Below are positions 38,676 to 46,203 of a stretch of DNA of 64,000 nt, one piece after another (within the stretch, counting starts at the first letter, position 1; every line of letters begins with the position of its first letter). Source of the DNA: Caballeronia insecticola (GTDB lineage: Bacteria; Pseudomonadota; Gammaproteobacteria; Burkholderiales; Burkholderiaceae); NCBI RefSeq assembly GCF_000402035.1, contig NC_021294.1, positions 62,001 to 126,000 on the forward strand, in the 5' to 3' direction. The notes beneath the pieces were generated by a model. It was not told the origin of the DNA, did not search any database, and saw only the letters and a list, made by a program, of their open reading frames with translations. A program made the translations under genes and the position numbers.

Positions 38676-41600
38676 ATGCCTCAAGACACTCGGAACCTAA
38701 CCTCCTGGATCTACCTCGCCATCGCGATCGCGCTTGCCGCCGTGTTCGCCATCGATCTGCTCACGCCCATGCGTGTCGCGATCTGGGTGTTCTACGTGCT
38801 GCCTGTCGTCCTGTGCGTGTGGGCGAACCGGCCGGCTATGCCGATCGTCGTTGCCACGGTTTCGTCGGCGCTGATGATCGCGGGCTACGTATTCTCCTCC
38901 GCCGACGCAAGCGCGAACCCCGAAGTGCTGCAACTCAATCGCGCGATGGGCATTGTCGTGCTGCTCGTGCTCGCGGCGGTGGCGCATCTGTATATCAAAT
39001 CGCGGCTCGCGGTTCAACGCACGGCCTGGCTGCAGCAGGGCATCGTGCAGCTTGCGCTGCAACTGCGCGGCGAGCAGTCTCCGGATTCGATCGGCGCGAG
39101 CGTGCTGCGTTCGATCGTGCCGTACGTCGATGCCAAAGTGGCTGTGGTCTATGCGCTCGAAGGCGAGGTGCTCGTGCGCGTGGCGGCGTGGGCGTTGCCG
39201 GACGAGGACAGCGCGCCGCGCCGGATTGCGCGGGGCGAAGGGCTCGTCGGCCAGGCGCTCGCCGATGCGCGCGTGCTCGAACTGCGCGACGCTTCCGCGC
39301 ACTATCTGAGAACCGGTTCCGCGCTGGGGAAAGCGGCGGCGTCGCGTGTCGTGATCGCGCCGCTCTACGCCGACGGCGACGTGGCCGGCGCGATCGAGCT
39401 GGGTTTCGTCGGCGTCGAAGGCCGTTTCGACGATGCCCGCGCGCTGCTCGACATGGCCGCGGAGCCGATCGGCGTTGCGCTGCGCTCGGCGAAGTATCGT
39501 GCGCGTCTCGTCGAACTGCTGGATGAAACGCAGCGCCAGAGCGAGGAAATGCAGGTGCAGCAGGAAGAGCTGCGCGTGTCGAACGAGGAACTGGAGGAGC
39601 GCGGCCGGGCGTTGCAGGATTCGCAGGCGCGGCTGGAGCAGCAGCAGGCGGAACTGGAACAGACCAATGTCCAGCTCGAAGAACACACGCAGCATCTGGA
39701 GCGGCAGAAGGCCGAGCTTTTGCAGGCGCAGCAGGAACTGACCGCGAACGCGCTGGAAATGGAGCGCGCGAGCCAGTACAAGTCGGAGTTCCTCGCGAAC
39801 ATGTCGCACGAGTTGCGCACGCCGCTCAACAGCTCGCTGATTCTCGCGAAGCTCCTGCAGGACAACAAGCAAGGCAATCTCACCGACGAACAGGTGCGGT
39901 TCGCCGCGACGATTCATTCGTCGAACAGCGATCTGCTCTCGCTCATCAACGACATTCTCGATCTGTCGAAAGTCGAGGCCGGTCAGATGGACGTGCAATT
40001 CGCGCCCGCCGCCGTCGATTCGATCCTGGAGGCACTGAAGCAGTCCTTCGCGCCCGTCGCGCAGAACAAGGGCCTCGAATTCATCACCGAACACGGCGAG
40101 AACGTGCCGCAGTATTTCGTCACGGACAGCCAGCGGCTGCTGCAAGTGCTGCGCAATCTGCTGTCGAACGCGTTCAAGTTCACCGAGCGCGGCAGCGTGA
40201 CGGTCGCGGTGCAGCGCGCAAGCGACAATGCGCTGCGTTTCGAGGTGCGCGATACGGGCATCGGCATCGCGCGGGAAAAGCAGGACATGATCTTCCAGGC
40301 GTTCCAGCAGGCCGACGGCACCACGAGCCGCAGATACGGCGGCAGCGGCCTCGGACTGTCGATCTCGCGCGAATTTTCGCGTCTGCTGGGCGGCACGGTC
40401 GCGGTAACGAGCGAACCGGGCAAGGGCAGCGTGTTTTCCGTGACGCTGCCGATCGCCGCGCGCGAGGGCACCGTCGTCGCGAAGCTCGACACGCTCACGC
40501 AGACGGGCGAGCCCGCGCCCGCGGCCATGCAGCAAGCCGCGCCCGCGCCGGTCAAGGCACCGCCGCCTCAGCCGCCCATGCCAATGCCGTCTACGATGCC
40601 CGAGCCGATGCCTATCGCCGACGACCGCGCCGAACGGAAGCATCCGGATCGCGCGATTCTCGTCATCGAGGACGATCAGACGTTCGCGCGCATTCTCTAC
40701 GATCTCGCCCACGAGCTCGAATTCGACTGCGTGCACGCCGCCACCGCGACGCAAGGCGTGGAACTCGCGCGCTCGATGCAGCCGAGCGGCATCCTGCTCG
40801 ACATCGGCTTGCCGGACCAGTCCGGTCTCACGGTGCTCGAATGGCTCAAGCACGATCCGCTCACGCGTCATATTCCGATCCATATCGTGTCCGCGACCGA
40901 TCACGCCGATGTCGCGCTGCATCTCGGCGCGATCGGCTACACGCTCAAGCCGAGCGCGCGCGACGATCTCGCAACCGCGATCCGCAAGCTCGAAGCGCGT
41001 TCGTCGCAGGGCATGCGCCGCGTGCTCGTCGTGGAGGACGATCCGGCGCTGCGCCAGAGCATCCACGCGCTGCTCGCGAGCGAGACGGTGGCGATCGTCG
41101 AGGCGGGGTCGATTGCCGAGGCGCTCGACGAAATGCAGCGCGCGTCCTTCGATTGCGTCGTGATGGATCTCGCGCTGCCCGACGGCTCCGGCTACGAACT
41201 GCTCGAACGCGTGTCGACGAGCGGCGGCCCCGCGTCGCCGCCGGTGATCGTCTATACGGGACGGCTGCTGTCGCAGGAAGAAGAGCAGCGCCTGCGCCGT
41301 TATTCGAAATCGATCATCATCAAGGGGGCGAAGTCGCCGGAGCGTCTGCTCGACGAAGTGACGCTGTTCCTGCACAGCGTCGAGAGCGCGTTGCCGCCGG
41401 AACAGCAGCGCATGCTGCGCGCGGCGCGTCAGCGCGACGACGTGTTCGAAGGCCGCACGATCCTCCTCGCCGAGGACGACGTGCGCAACATCTTCGCGCT
41501 CTCGCGCGTGATCGAGCCGCTCGGCGCCACGCTCGAAATCGCGCGCAACGGGCGCGAGGCGCTCGAAGCGCTTGCGCGCCGCAGCGACATCGACCTCGTT

Positions 41601-41822
41601 CTGATGGACGTGATGATGCCCGAGATGGACGGCCTGACCGCGATGACCGAAATTCGCAAGCAGGCGCAGCATGCGCGGCTGCCGATCATCGCGCTGACGG
41701 CGAAGGCAATGCCGAGCGACCGCCAGAAATGTCTCGAAGCGGGTGCGGACGATTACATATCCAAGCCCATCGATGTGGATAAGCTCGTCTCGCTGTGCCG
41801 CGTATGGCTGCGGCAACGATGA
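38676..41822 (+). CDS. membrane GAF hybrid histidine kinase with three receiver domains
   Basis: A 1048-residue protein. Three or four membrane helices lie in residues ~10-112, then a GAF domain (~120-272) and a long Gln/Glu-rich coiled coil (~285-368). The kinase core has phospho-acceptor H378 (NMSHELRTPLN) and ATP boxes RDTGIGI and GGSGLGLSI. A Pro-rich linker (~615-645) leads to three tandem receivers with LLDIGLPD, VMDLALPD and LMDVMMPE acceptor regions. The GAF and coiled coil may relay a small-molecule or CheB/CheR signal. No PAS domain is seen. Its TGA overlaps the cheR ATG as ATGA, so translation is coupled. Confidence 0.92.
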   Translation: MPQDTRNLTSWIYLAIAIALAAVFAIDLLTPMRVAIWVFYVLPVVLCVWANRPAMPIVVATVSSALMIAGYVFSSADASANPEVLQLNRAMGIVVLLVLAAVAHLYIKSRLAVQRTAWLQQGIVQLALQLRGEQSPDSIGASVLRSIVPYVDAKVAVVYALEGEVLVRVAAWALPDEDSAPRRIARGEGLVGQALADARVLELRDASAHYLRTGSALGKAAASRVVIAPLYADGDVAGAIELGFVGVEGRFDDARALLDMAAEPIGVALRSAKYRARLVELLDETQRQSEEMQVQQEELRVSNEELEERGRALQDSQARLEQQQAELEQTNVQLEEHTQHLERQKAELLQAQQELTANALEMERASQYKSEFLANMSHELRTPLNSSLILAKLLQDNKQGNLTDEQVRFAATIHSSNSDLLSLINDILDLSKVEAGQMDVQFAPAAVDSILEALKQSFAPVAQNKGLEFITEHGENVPQYFVTDSQRLLQVLRNLLSNAFKFTERGSVTVAVQRASDNALRFEVRDTGIGIAREKQDMIFQAFQQADGTTSRRYGGSGLGLSISREFSRLLGGTVAVTSEPGKGSVFSVTLPIAAREGTVVAKLDTLTQTGEPAPAAMQQAAPAPVKAPPPQPPMPMPSTMPEPMPIADDRAERKHPDRAILVIEDDQTFARILYDLAHELEFDCVHAATATQGVELARSMQPSGILLDIGLPDQSGLTVLEWLKHDPLTRHIPIHIVSATDHADVALHLGAIGYTLKPSARDDLATAIRKLEARSSQGMRRVLVVEDDPALRQSIHALLASETVAIVEAGSIAEALDEMQRASFDCVVMDLALPDGSGYELLERVSTSGGPASPPVIVYTGRLLSQEEEQRLRRYSKSIIIKGAKSPERLLDEVTLFLHSVESALPPEQQRMLRAARQRDDVFEGRTILLAEDDVRNIFALSRVIEPLGATLEIARNGREALEALARRSDIDLVLMDVMMPEMDGLTAMTEIRKQAQHARLPIIALTAKAMPSDRQKCLEAGADDYISKPIDVDKLVSLCRVWLRQR

Positions 41823-42676
41823 ACGATTCGACCCTGCACATGACCGAAAGCACGCACGACGAAGACGCGACGTTCGACATCGAACTGAAGCTGCTCCTCG
41901 AAGCGATCTACCTGCGCTATCAGCACGACTTCCGGCATTACTCCGTGAGTTCGCTGCGGCGCAGGCTCGCGCAGGCGGTGCAGGATCTGAATCTGCCGAC
42001 GCTTTCGCAATTGCAGGAGCGCATCCTGCGCGATCCGGCGCTGTTCGCGCGGCTGTTTCAGTACCTCACGGTGCAGGTCAGCGAGATGTTCCGCGACCCG
42101 CAGTATTTCCGCGCGATCCGCGAGCAGGTCGTGCCGATTCTGCAGACGTATCCGTCGATCAAGGTCTGGGTCGCGGGATGCAGCAGCGGCGAGGAACTGT
42201 GGTCGCTCGCGGTGCTGTTCGCCGAGGAGAAGATCGCGGACCGCACCGTGTTCTACGCGACGGATATCAACGCCGACGCGCTGCGTCAGGCCGAAAATGG
42301 TATTTATCCGCTCGAACGCATGGCCAGCTTCAGCCAGAACTATCTGGCGGCGGGCGGCAAGCGGTCGCTGTCGGACTACTATCACGCGGCTTATGGAGCG
42401 GCGAAGTTCTCGCAGACGCTCAAGTCGCGCGTAGTGTTCGCGGATCATAGCCTCGCCACCGACAGCGTGTTTCTCGAAGCGCATCTGGTGTCGTGCCGCA
42501 ATGTGCTGATCTATTTCGATCGCGCTTTGCAGGATCGCGCGCTCGGCCTGTTCAGCGATTCGCTCGTGCGGCGCGGGTTTCTCGGTCTCGGCAGCAAGGA
42601 GAGCCTGCGTTTTTCGAAGTACGCGGACCGCTTTGCGGACTTCAATCCGCGCGAGCGGCTTTACCAGAAGGTGTGA
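41819..42676 (+). CDS. CheR-type methyltransferase
   Basis: A 285-residue CheR homologue that would transfer methyl groups from SAM to glutamates. The N-terminal helical domain (IYLRYQHDFRHYSVSSLRRRL) is followed by the SAM-binding domain with VWVAGCSSGEELWSLA, FYATDINADALRQA and VSCRNVLIYFD, all characteristic. No chemoreceptor is encoded in the operon, so the substrate may be the coiled coil of the upstream kinase or another protein; this is speculative. The start overlaps the kinase stop as ATGA. Confidence 0.92.
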   Translation: MNDSTLHMTESTHDEDATFDIELKLLLEAIYLRYQHDFRHYSVSSLRRRLAQAVQDLNLPTLSQLQERILRDPALFARLFQYLTVQVSEMFRDPQYFRAIREQVVPILQTYPSIKVWVAGCSSGEELWSLAVLFAEEKIADRTVFYATDINADALRQAENGIYPLERMASFSQNYLAAGGKRSLSDYYHAAYGAAKFSQTLKSRVVFADHSLATDSVFLEAHLVSCRNVLIYFDRALQDRALGLFSDSLVRRGFLGLGSKESLRFSKYADRFADFNPRERLYQKV

Positions 42677-42678
42677 CG

Positions 42679-43275
42679 ATGTTCGACGCAGCGCGCATCG
42701 GAGCAGTCGTGATCGGCGCATCGGCGGGCGGCGTCGAGGCGCTCAACCTGTTGCTGCCGGTGCTGCCGAAAGCGTTCGCGGCACCGGTGCTCGTCGTCGT
42801 GCACGTGCGGCAAGGGCAGCCGAGCCTGTTGCCGGGGCTGTTCGCCGCGCGCTGCGCGCTCGCCATCGAAGAACCGTTCGACAAGGACGAGATCGCGCCG
42901 GGCACCGTGTATTTCGCGCCGCCGGGCTATCACATGCTCGTTGAGGCGGAAGGCGGCGCGGCGCCGTCGATCGCGCTGTCGATCGACCCGCCGGTGCGCT
43001 TCTCGCGGCCGTCGGTGGACGTGCTGTTCGAGTCGGCGGCGCATGCCTATGGCGAGCGGCTGCTCAGCATCGTCCTGTCCGGCGCCAACGACGACGGCGC
43101 CCGCGGCGCGCGCACGATTCGCGAAGCGGGCGGCGCGTGCTGGGCGCAAGACCCGGCGACGGCCACCGCTCCCGCGATGCCGCTCGCGGCCATTGCGGCG
43201 GACGCCGCGAACGAAGTGCTCACGCTGGAACAGATGGCGATGCGGCTCACGCAATACGTGGACCACTCGAAATGA
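42679..43275 (+). CDS. stand-alone CheB-type methylesterase (no receiver)
   Basis: A 198-residue catalytic CheB domain. The triad can be placed at S15 (GASAGG), H42 (VVHVRQG) and D138 or D139 (LSGANDDGARG). Classical CheB has a regulatory receiver in front; here it is absent, so activity cannot be switched by direct phosphorylation. It would reverse methylation set by the CheR two bases upstream. The ATG of the next open frame overlaps its stop, but the downstream kinase more likely starts at 43296. Confidence 0.92.
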   Translation: MFDAARIGAVVIGASAGGVEALNLLLPVLPKAFAAPVLVVVHVRQGQPSLLPGLFAARCALAIEEPFDKDEIAPGTVYFAPPGYHMLVEAEGGAAPSIALSIDPPVRFSRPSVDVLFESAAHAYGERLLSIVLSGANDDGARGARTIREAGGACWAQDPATATAPAMPLAAIAADAANEVLTLEQMAMRLTQYVDHSK

Positions 43276-43295
43276 AAGAGGCAAGGAGTCTCCAG

Positions 43296-44435
43296 ATGAC
43301 GCAACCCATCCACGTGCTGATCGTCGACGACATCCGCAACAACATCACCGCGCTCGAAGCGTCGCTTGCGCGGCCGGATTTGTCGGTGCTGAAAGCCGAA
43401 TCGGGACCGGCCGCGCTCGAGCTTCTGCTCAAGCACGAAGTCGCGCTCGCCATTCTCGATGTCAACATGCCCGGCATGGACGGCTTCGAACTGGCCGAAC
43501 TGATGCGCGGCAGCCCGCGCACCGCGCACGTGCCGATCATCTTTCTCACGGCGACCGCGCAGGACGCGAGCCGCACGTTCCGCGGTTACGAAGCGGGCGC
43601 GGTGGACTTTCTCTACAAGCCGTTCGATTCGCGCATCCTGAATTCGAAGGTCGATGTGTTCATCCAGATGGAACGCCAGAAGCAGCAACTCGCGACGCAA
43701 CTCGCGACCGTGCAGCAACTGCTCGACGCAAACGAAATGCTGATGGCCGTGCTCGGCCACGATCTGCGCACGCCGTTGTCGGCGGTGATCGCGTCGGCGG
43801 AATATCTCGCGCGTTTCGTGCAGGACGAGAACGTCGCGAATATCGGCACGCGCATCAAGTCGAGCGGCATGCGCATGGTGCGCATGGTCGATCAGTTGCT
43901 GAACCTCGCGCGCCTGCGCGGCGGCCGCGTGACTTTGCAGCCGCGCGCGGTGGAACTGATGACGCTCGCGAAAAATATCGTCGATGAATACGAGGCGCGC
44001 GTCGGGCGCGGGCGCATCTTCGTGCTGCGTCAGGGCGACACGCTGCTGCAGGGCGACGGCGATCTGCTGTCGCAGGTGTTTTCGAACCTTATCGGCAACG
44101 CGTTGCAACACGGGCTCGAAGGCTCGGCGATTCAGGTGCGCCTTGACGGCAATGCCGACGCCGTCACCATCGTGGTGCAGAACGCCGGCGAAATTCCCGC
44201 CGAAATTCTGCCGACGATCTTCGCGCCGTATCGCTCGGGGCAACGCCAGAACGAATCGAGCGGCCTCGGTCTCGGGCTCTACATCACGCGGGAGATTGCG
44301 CAGATGCACGGCGGCGACGTCCGGGTGAAGTCGACGTCCGAAGCGGGCACGATTTTCGAAGTCACGTTGCCGCGCGTGCTGCACCCGCGTGCCGGCGAGC
44401 ACGCCGATCACGCGCAGCCGTTCCGTCTCAGTTGA
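43296..44435 (+). CDS. receiver-histidine kinase fusion protein
   Basis: About 379 residues, soluble. An N-terminal receiver (VLIVDDIRNNITALE, acceptor in AILDVNMPGMDG, lysine in FLYKPF) is fused to a histidine kinase core (AVLGHDLRTPLSAVI, FSNLIGNALQHG, GLGLGLYITREIA). Such proteins act as relays: phosphorylation of the receiver alters the kinase. AAGGAG lies seven bases before the ATG at 43296, favouring it over the ATG at 43272, which overlaps the cheB stop. It is the last gene of the four-gene operon. It could receive phosphate from the upstream hybrid kinase. Confidence 0.9.
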   Translation: MTQPIHVLIVDDIRNNITALEASLARPDLSVLKAESGPAALELLLKHEVALAILDVNMPGMDGFELAELMRGSPRTAHVPIIFLTATAQDASRTFRGYEAGAVDFLYKPFDSRILNSKVDVFIQMERQKQQLATQLATVQQLLDANEMLMAVLGHDLRTPLSAVIASAEYLARFVQDENVANIGTRIKSSGMRMVRMVDQLLNLARLRGGRVTLQPRAVELMTLAKNIVDEYEARVGRGRIFVLRQGDTLLQGDGDLLSQVFSNLIGNALQHGLEGSAIQVRLDGNADAVTIVVQNAGEIPAEILPTIFAPYRSGQRQNESSGLGLGLYITREIAQMHGGDVRVKSTSEAGTIFEVTLPRVLHPRAGEHADHAQPFRLS

Positions 44436-44500
44436 AGCGCTCGCGGGCGCGCGTGTCTACAATGCGCCCTATCGACGAACAACGAACGATGGAGAACGCA

Positions 44501-44797
44501 ATGCCGGGCCCGGATCTGAACACGAGAATCGAAACCTATTACGTGCGCGTGCGGGGCGTCGTGCAGGGCGTGGGTTTCAGGCATCACACGGTGAGGCGCG
44601 CGCATGAGCTTGGCGTGCGCGGCTGGGTCGCCAATCTCGACGACGGCTCGGTCGAAGCGATCGTCCAGGGCGCGGCCAATCAGGTCGATCTGATGCTCGA
44701 ATGGCTGCGACGCGGGCCGCCGCATGCCCGCGTTACCGACTTCGTCAGCGAAGAGCGTCACATCGAGAAGCGTTATGAACGCTTCGAACAACATTAA
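44501..44797 (+). CDS. acyP: acylphosphatase
   Basis: A 98-residue enzyme with the acylphosphatase signature: VRVRGVVQGVGFRHHTVRRAHELGVRGWVANLDDGSVEAI, in which the GVGFR loop carries the catalytic Arg and VANLDDGSVE the catalytic Asn. It hydrolyses carboxyl-phosphate bonds such as acetyl phosphate and acylphosphates. GGAG lies six bases before the ATG at 44501; an ATG at 44489 would add four residues. The stop codon overlaps that of the convergent egtD gene by two bases. Confidence 0.9.
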   Translation: MPGPDLNTRIETYYVRVRGVVQGVGFRHHTVRRAHELGVRGWVANLDDGSVEAIVQGAANQVDLMLEWLRRGPPHARVTDFVSEERHIEKRYERFEQH

Positions 44798-45762
44798 CGC
44801 GCAACGAGCAGACTCTCCGCGAACTGCCATTCCTCATCACGCCATTGATGCGTGCATTCGAATCCCGCATCGGCGGCGATCGGCGCGACCTCTTCAGCCG
44901 CGTACTTGTGGCTGCTCTCCGTCCAGATCGTCTCGCCCTCGCGGAATTCCGCGCGCAGATCTGCGCCGCGCACGCGCACGGACAGCGCGCGTTTCGCCCG
45001 CAAATGCATCTCGATGCTGCGCGCATCCGGGTTGAAACGTGCGACGTGCTCGAACGCATCGAGCGGAAAATCGCCGCCCAACTCGCGGTTGATGCGCGCG
45101 AGCATGTTCAGGTTGAACGCGGCCGTAACGCCGATCGGATCGTCGTACGCGGCAATCAGCGTCGGCAGCGGTTTGATGAGATCGGTGCCGAGCAGGAGCG
45201 CGTCGCCGGGTTGCAGCATGCCGCGGATCGAGCGCAGAAAGCGCGTCGCCGCGAGCCGCGCGAAATTGCCGATGGTGCTGCCGAGAAAGAGCACGAGCAG
45301 CCGTTCGCCTTCACTGCGTTTCGAACTGACTTCCGATAATCCCGCGAGGTAATCGCGCTCGTGTCCGACGATCGATACGCGCTCGATGTCGCTCAGTTCG
45401 CGGCGGCACAACTGCAGAGCGGTGCGCGAAATTTCAATCGGATGGTAAGCAGTGGGCTGCTTCTTACACAGGGCTTCGAGAATGCGGCGCGTCTTGCGGC
45501 CGCTGCCGCTGCCGAGTTCCGCGACCTTGATGTCGCCCGGCATGGCCGCGACGATATCCGTCGCGTGGTCTTTCAGCACGCGCTCTTCGGCGCGCGTCAC
45601 GCCGTATTCGGGCAACGCGGTGATCACCTCGAAAAGCGCGGAGCCCACTTCGTCATACAGATACATCGAGGGCAATTCTTTCTGCGGATGTTTGCTGAGG
45701 CCGGCGTGGACGGCTTCGGCGAAAGCGTTGGAAAAGCGAGGCGATAGGGCTGGTTGAGTCAT
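44794..45762 (-). CDS. egtD: L-histidine N-alpha-methyltransferase EgtD
   Basis: A 322-residue SAM-dependent methyltransferase that makes hercynine, the first step of ergothioneine synthesis. The SAM loop VAELGSGSGRKTRRIL and the downstream GSTIGNF, AYDDPIGVTAAFNLNMLARINRELG and WTESSHKY match EgtD. GGAG lies five bases before the ATG at 45762; the open frame above is non-coding. No egtB is next to it here, although the two are commonly neighbours. It is convergent with acylphosphatase, with overlapping stops. Confidence 0.9.
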   Translation of the reverse strand: MTQPALSPRFSNAFAEAVHAGLSKHPQKELPSMYLYDEVGSALFEVITALPEYGVTRAEERVLKDHATDIVAAMPGDIKVAELGSGSGRKTRRILEALCKKQPTAYHPIEISRTALQLCRRELSDIERVSIVGHERDYLAGLSEVSSKRSEGERLLVLFLGSTIGNFARLAATRFLRSIRGMLQPGDALLLGTDLIKPLPTLIAAYDDPIGVTAAFNLNMLARINRELGGDFPLDAFEHVARFNPDARSIEMHLRAKRALSVRVRGADLRAEFREGETIWTESSHKYAAEEVAPIAADAGFECTHQWRDEEWQFAESLLVAR

Positions 45763-46203
45763 GACGTCTCCATCGATGCGGCGTTTTCTTCGCATGCCGT
45801 TCTTGTCGGAACCGGCACGGCGCGTGTTGCGGCGGATGCAATGACGTGAGCGGCGCAGGATCGCGCATGACGCCGCCCGGACTTCGGAAGCGGACCGGAA
45901 CGATGCCGGACCGCCAAAGGATCGCCGATCAGCGTGACCGGCAAAGGACAACTTCGAACCACCGCGCGAGAAACCGTTCGAGCGGACTCAAGGCGCACTC
46001 AAACGCGGATTCAAAACAGGCTCACTCAGCGCGTTTCATGCCTGAATGCGAAGCATGATGGAAGCAAAAAGCGGGCACGCCCGCCAACTTTCATTTGAAG
46101 CGAATCTTGAAGAACGGCGGCGGGCTCCGTTTAGAATGCGCCATTCCCGGCAGATTAATTTCATTCGGCTTGCGTTTTCACTTCGCGCTTCGCGCCACAC
46201 TCG
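45763..46203. other. 441-bp divergent region between egtD and rarD-like gene
   Basis: No gene is supported. TAGAAT at 46131-46136 with TTGAAG at 46106-46111 (19-bp spacer) is a possible promoter for the rarD-like gene. No trace of egtB is visible. Confidence 0.4.

Follow-up and report, generated by a model that had tools for sequence, protein, structure and literature searches.

Gene content of the operon

We examined a 64,000-nucleotide stretch of the Caballeronia insecticola genome (C4:62001-126000 of 6.96 Mb; here referred to as the window), in which four genes lie in a row. According to their open reading frames (ORFs) and Pfam matches, they encode a hybrid histidine kinase (HK), referred to as K1, a CheR, a CheB lacking the receiver (REC) domain, and a REC-kinase, referred to as K2. 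A preliminary description of the window had suggested that CheR and CheB modify the kinase itself, and it is this suggestion that is examined here. The features of the operon are as follows (TM, transmembrane; AF2, AlphaFold2).

38676..41822, + strand: K1, hybrid sensor histidine kinase, 1048 aa; 4 TM-GAF-coil-HisKA-HATPase-REC-REC-REC (Pfam, AF2)
38688..39065, + strand: N-terminal membrane part of K1, helices 5-29, 36-49, 55-74 and 82-130 (AF2, hydropathy)
39075..39482, + strand: GAF domain of K1, residues 134-269; PF13185 (GAF_2), 4.9e-11
39540..39602, + strand: EE-heptad helix of K1, residues 289-309, SEEMQVQQEELRVSNEELEER; candidate methylation helix
39780..39983, + strand: HisKA of K1, residues 369-436; PF00512, 1e-18
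40125..40454, + strand: HATPase_c of K1, residues 484-593; PF02518, 2.8e-31
40654..41819, + strand: three receivers of K1, acceptor-type D709, D831 and D978; three PF00072 matches, outer limits approximate
41819..42676, + strand: cheR, methyltransferase of the kinase-linked clade, 285 aa; PF03705 (CheR_N) and PF01739 (CheR)
42679..43275, + strand: cheB, methylesterase domain alone, 198 aa; PF01339 (CheB_methylest), 2.1e-55
43296..44435, + strand: K2, REC-histidine kinase, 379 aa; PF00072, PF00512 and PF02518; in the position of CfcD

The K1 stop and the cheR start share an ATGA overlap, and cheB begins 2 bp past the cheR stop; on re-reading, these junctions and the coordinates were as previously described, and Pfam matched the earlier outline of a membrane GAF kinase with a coil and three receivers, followed by a CheR, a receiver-less CheB and a receiver-kinase. 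The start of K2 was taken as the ATG at 43296, 20 bp past the cheB stop, with earlier starts possible in the same frame. By motif reading, the phospho-acceptor of K1 is H378 (codon 39807-39809), within SHELRTP at 377. All the motifs looked at in the operon proteins, which include the presumed catalytic residues, were intact (H378; D709, D831 and D978; AGCSSGEE; GASAGG, H42 and GANDDG).

The model of the operon CheR had a predicted local distance difference test score (pLDDT) of 92.5, with Bacillus subtilis CheR (5ftw) as its nearest structure (Foldseek template-modelling score of 0.80, query-normalised). The operon CheB could be aligned to the structure 3sft, as well as to full-length CheB chains over their C-terminal part, and no receiver domain was detected in it by Pfam, unlike the canonical two-domain CheB. 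Pfam gave no CHASE3 match in K1, the sensor end of which consists of the four membrane helices; among 8 relatives of K1 that were checked, CHASE3 was found in 5 and 4HB_MCP_1 in 2, one of them under the curated cut-off.

The EE-heptad helix of the kinase

In methyl-accepting chemotaxis proteins (MCPs), the residues that become methylated are E/Q pairs. The K1 helix carries EE pairs at 290/291, 297/298 and 304/305, with a spacing of exactly seven residues, and E/Q pairs with the same spacing were found, with the pattern used, in 6 of the 13 MCPs of the same genome. The likeness of the Gln/Glu-rich coil to receptor methylation helices, proposed in the preliminary description for residues 285-365, held in the form of MCP-like EE heptads, while the conservation of these was limited to residues 290-308. 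The six EE residues were 0.97 identical over 26 module kinases, compared with 0.49 for the other b/c heptad positions (311-365), 0.68 for the kinase core and 0.46 for the GAF domain.

In the AF2 model of residues 1-620, residues 251-338 form one continuous helix leaving the GAF domain, with block pLDDT of at least 90 over 271-310 and low confidence over 334-359. As the model is a monomer with a predicted template-modelling score (pTM) of 0.48, no claim on the K1 dimer is drawn from it.

Of the 290 six-frame stop-to-stop frames in the window that reach 100 aa, just one, that of K1, contained two EE pairs separated by five residues (EE-x5-EE). EE-x5-EE was carried by 69, and the EE triple by 49, of the 74 kinases linked to cheR in the sampled genomes; shuffles of the same kinases that preserved the heptad phase gave a mean of 16 and a maximum of 25 for the former, and 1.3 and 5 for the latter. 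The cheR-linked kinases of the named loci gave a similar picture (EE-x5-EE in 64/67 and the triple in 51/67), and of the 42 other kinases in those loci the only one with EE-x5-EE, at locus L069, is a split module kinase.

Spread and composition of the module

The phylogenetic spread of the operon was surveyed with the best 80 loci that a CheR alignment retrieved from the genome collection, which gives a lower bound. These loci span about 12 phyla, as read from the record titles: Pseudomonadota, Myxococcota, Planctomycetota, Verrucomicrobiota, Bdellovibrionota, Bacteroidota, Cyanobacteriota, Gemmatimonadota, Calditrichota, Bacillota, Acidobacteriota and Desulfobacterota-type lineages. Neighbouring genes were called with hidden Markov models built here, in stretches of up to about 9 kb on each side, and within these no MCP or CheW was detected at any of the 80 loci (E up to 1e-4). 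Of the 71 loci with room upstream of cheR, 67 had a hybrid kinase, or the receiver part of one, within 3 kb on that side; of the 72 with room downstream, 59 had a CheB within 6 kb.

The first receiver gene after cheR (n=72) encoded REC-HK in 34 loci, REC-HK-REC in 11 and REC-GGDEF in 7; a bare receiver match was found in 7, other forms in 6 and none in 7. The bare receiver match at L062 (10189-11430) and the REC-REC protein at L103 (9698-11647) are HWE-type kinases with a receiver, rather than HisKA kinases, which may point to a connection with alphaproteobacterial stress signalling. A later gene at L111 encodes a REC-PAS-PilZ protein. The Bacillota modules L113, L128 and L135 have, at about 3.9-5.2 kb in the locus, a gene for an RsbY-like REC-SpoIIE phosphatase immediately upstream of the kinase, and no CheB was seen in these three. 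At L083, from Candidatus Burkholderia humilis, the module is split over several broken frames and thus seems decayed.

The CheR clade and the CheB-CheR fusions

In a FastTree phylogeny with some long branches (e.g. L008), the module CheRs (80 rows including that of the window) fell on one side of a branch with a support of 99, and outside it were 19 canonical, 23 fusion and 2 bifunctional CheRs. An RGxGxxxGxVR-like loop, seen in most of the canonical CheRs shown, is missing in the module CheRs; these carry instead an insert ending in SLSDYY, part of which is shared by the 2 bifunctional CheRs. The loop region of CheR is described as the place of the residues that bind the MCP pentapeptide (PMC2577667). 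Over 44 CheRs, 32 columns were invariant. Kinase and CheR distances were correlated (r 0.82, 57 rows, 0/500 permutations), a value that includes the shared species history.

Remoter CheR matches were CheB-CheR proteins that run on into PAS, with a kinase domain in 3 of the 5 checked. EE-x5-EE was found in the segment after CheR in 21 of 23 such fusions, mostly as at least four pairs in a row (e.g. EELQSTNEELETSKEELQSVNEEL), and was missing only from those with the shortest frames, L037 (668 aa) and L045 (683 aa). The coil precedes a PAS_10 domain in the five fusions scanned. Runs of EELxxxN heptads were observed in the CheB-CheR-coil-PAS(-kinase) fusions L320, L321, L322, L038-L044 and L046-L056.

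The fusions resemble the operon in combining CheR, CheB and a coil with tandem EE heptads, and differ in that all are in one polypeptide with its CheR on another branch. That the EE signature stands beside CheR in two designs is, on the sequences compared, the strongest comparative argument for the EE heptads as the CheR target, which it suggests.

Chemosensory genes elsewhere in the genome

The whole genome gave 13 matches to MCP (PF00015), 6 to CheW (PF01584, CheA-type frames included), 4 to CheR and 3 to CheB. All PF00015 and PF01584 matches lie outside the window, which, as previously noted, has no MCP, CheW or CheA; its only CheR and CheB matches are the operon's own pair, and the closest MCP is about 40 kb away from the operon. 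Two chemosensory clusters were found, at C1:134-140 kb and C4:1154-1160 kb. Since each of them carries its own CheR and CheB, those of the operon make up a third, separate pair. Compared with the canonical pathways, the operon also has CheR and CheB, and the E/Q pairs seven residues apart recur in MCPs, whereas MCP, CheA and CheW are absent from it.

An unlinked paralogue of K1 was observed in the same genome (C3:1255000-1269000, locus L179, 4992-8558, - strand). It is a CHASE3-GAF-HK-REC3 protein of 1189 aa that keeps EE-x5-EE and has no cheR nearby. This kinase is a possible second substrate of the window CheR.

Relation to cfc of Pseudomonas putida and to RsbK-RsbM of Bacillus cereus

The cfcABCDE cluster of P. 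putida KT2440 encodes the hybrid kinase CfcA, the CheR CfcB, the CheB CfcC and CfcD, which has a REC domain (PMC4951495). Our comparisons were made with locus L093 of P. putida 31303, taken as cfc by its species and gene order. The order GAF-HK-REC3, CheR, CheB and REC-HK is the same in the window, and identities to L093 were 51% for K1 (from before the GAF domain to the last receiver, in a 955-column alignment), 57% for CheR, 45% for CheB and 34% for the REC-kinase, the fourth gene. Judging from this comparison, K1 is probably a CfcA homologue with a different sensor end, as the P. putida kinase has CHASE3 and the window kinase four TM helices. The ORF after K2 also differs, in not being a receiver.

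In P. putida, H496 of CfcA is required for the activity of the diguanylate cyclase CfcR (PMC4951495), and CfcA/CfcR were reported to respond to salt (a 2022 paper cited in PMC10950880). No close CfcR-like partner was found in the genome of the window by a search for receiver similarity only; among 27 receiver matches, the best outside the operon was 36% identical to the K2 receiver, over the receiver part only.

The methyltransferase RsbM of B. cereus acts on a signalling helix before HisKA in the hybrid kinase RsbK, and this methylation, together with the RsbK receiver, holds the pathway off (PMC4574943). RsbM has no paired methylesterase, and deletion of the sole CheB left the regulation unaffected (data not shown in that paper). 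RsbK-M modules have already been termed widespread (PMC4574943, citing a 2012 paper). The window likewise has a GAF hybrid kinase, a helix before HisKA and an adjoining methyltransferase gene. On the other hand, RsbK has one receiver, no paired CheB and the PP2C protein RsbY as output, whereas in the window the kinase has three receivers and is accompanied by a CheB of its own and by a REC-kinase. Among the neighbouring ORFs, read by eye and with no family scan, no REC-PP2C (RsbY) output was seen beside the window kinase. The name RsbM was not among the 120 matches listed in the protein search for B. cereus RsbM.

Proposed mechanism

Gene order, domains, intact motifs, conservation, clade and motif spacing are read directly from the sequences. 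Taken together, they point to a methylation-tuned two-component system that works with no MCP, CheW or CheA, a reading to which we give a probability of roughly three in four. We infer the following course. K1 would dimerise through the long helix between its GAF domain and the phospho-acceptor helix; CheR would methylate, and the receiver-less CheB demethylate, glutamates on the outer face of this helix, with 290/291, 297/298 and 304/305 as the candidates. Methylation may alter how the helix packs or how it touches the K1 receivers and in this way set the activity and the gain of the kinase, the sign of the effect and the adaptation that follows from it being presumptive. Phosphate would then pass from the K1 receivers to K2 and on to a putative output, which in some relatives may be the synthesis of cyclic di-GMP (c-di-GMP).

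The suggestion that the kinase, and not an MCP, is the target of CheR and CheB is thereby partly supported: the conservation of an MCP-free operon, the CheR clade, the EE heptads, the fusions and the RsbK precedent argue for it, and the contrast between linked and unlinked kinases, described below, is confounded. We consider the mechanism plausible and better founded than could be known when the window was first described.

Points against the mechanism and alternative explanations

The presence of EE-x5-EE was compared between kinases linked and not linked to cheR. As raw counts, it was found in 69/74 linked kinases, in 13/17 unlinked kinases of genomes with a module CheR elsewhere and in 7/29 unlinked kinases of genomes without one (7/31 once L193 and L194, neither with EE-x5-EE, are added). 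When the helix window was located with no use of the E positions, all four E were present in 46/74 linked kinases and in 3/29 unlinked kinases of genomes lacking a module CheR (family-level p 0.0012). Kinases were sorted into these groups manually by their coordinates, leaving out those that matched only from beyond about query residue 40 and lower-scoring or unlisted rows. Many kinases of genomes with no module CheR have a QQRELQQTNDQLEQ-type helix sequence and no EE. As the unlinked kinases mostly belong to other subfamilies, the contrast is confounded, and the kinase tree offered only 7 well-supported independent linked/unlinked pairs, an underpowered set. Linkage to cheR was dropped as a predictor of the EE pairs, the strong raw counts having found no support on the independent pairs.

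The following points weigh against the proposed mechanism. Averaged over those 7 pairs, EE-x5-EE agreed with linkage in 1.3, ran against it in 0.7 and showed no difference in 5.0, and the EE triple gave 2.3, 1.0 and 3.7, respectively, neither being significant. Kinases beside CheB-CheR bifunctional proteins carried EE-x5-EE in only 3 of 18 cases, most of them having another helix repeat, TEELQQTNAQMEEQQQ. At Q295, R300, N303, N331 and E307 the conservation of the K1 helix equals that of the EE pairs, so that the helix may have a structural role. CheB was not found in 13 of the 72 loci, so that reversible methylation would not be universal. Finally, the other cfc mutants of P. putida kept the crinkle phenotype, according to an unpublished statement in PMC4951495. 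As a separate observation, the bifunctional CheB-CheR proteins are of about 560-740 aa and lie near HK-REC kinases (L188, L189 and the sampled genomes).

Among the alternatives, the one that survives best, although we consider it unlikely, is that the EE helix is a structural signalling helix that sets the register of the coiled coil, with CheR and CheB acting elsewhere on K1 or on K2. The five equally conserved residues, the lack of a significant excess on independent pairs and the 7 of 29 kinases that keep EE-x5-EE in genomes without a module CheR would all fit such a role. It accounts less well for EE pairs that are spaced as in MCPs and are seen again in the CheB-CheR fusions, whose clade is a separate one, for the many QQRELQQTNDQLEQ-type helices that have no EE where the module CheR is absent, and for the methylation of RsbK on its helix before HisKA (PMC4574943).

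Somewhat less probable still is that the operon CheR and CheB modify one or more of the 13 MCPs of the genome and so couple two pathways. The genome does hold these MCPs and two chemosensory clusters, and the operon CheR and CheB match canonical folds or families; however, both clusters have a CheR and a CheB of their own, no MCP or CheW was seen at any of the 80 related loci in the stretches examined, the module CheRs lack the canonical loop and form a separate clade, and for the P. putida pair, CfcB and CfcC, a role in chemotaxis has been excluded (PMC4951495, with reference to a 2013 paper). That CheR and CheB are scaffolds or vestiges no longer relevant to the kinase, for which the phenotype kept by other cfc mutants in one assay (PMC4951495) and the 13 of 72 loci with no CheB found could speak, is very improbable in view of the intact motifs, the 32 invariant CheR columns, the retention of CheR beside the kinase across about 12 phyla and the correlated distances.

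Novelty and meaning

As methylation of the RsbK helix by RsbM has already been shown (PMC4574943), the principle of the proposed kinase methylation is not new; the operon is a variant of it, its type of cluster already bears a name in P. putida, and the new part is the dedicated CheB, the phylogenetic breadth and the shared EE signature. In the literature searched, RsbK was the sole kinase shown as a CheR-type substrate, and its titles and the openings of its abstracts gave no pointer to EE heptads common to kinase-linked and fused CheRs.

We are evenly divided on the wider idea that reversible methylation of glutamates tunes two-component kinases in general and is no speciality of chemoreceptors, with the kinase-linked CheR clade of about 12 phyla, mostly accompanied by a receiver-less CheB, and the fusions as two designs sharing one MCP-like helix. 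If this is true, stress and c-di-GMP signalling could gain a chemotaxis-like adaptation, and methylation would serve adaptation in the regulation of genes and of c-di-GMP in many bacteria. Likewise, the annotation of kinase-linked CheR and CheB as chemotaxis proteins would be misleading. Because the EE signature points to both the kinases and the residues, the role of kinase-linked CheR and CheB becomes a question of one peptide.

Flanking sequences

A search for promoters and terminators gave 3 promoter-like sites, where 0.7 were expected, and 3 terminator-like sites, where 4.6 were expected, neither count being decisive. Two downstream ORFs lie outside the operon and were recognised by eye from the ORF list: 44432-44797 (+ strand), which is acylphosphatase-like, and 44794-45951 (- strand), which resembles an EgtD-like methyltransferase gene.

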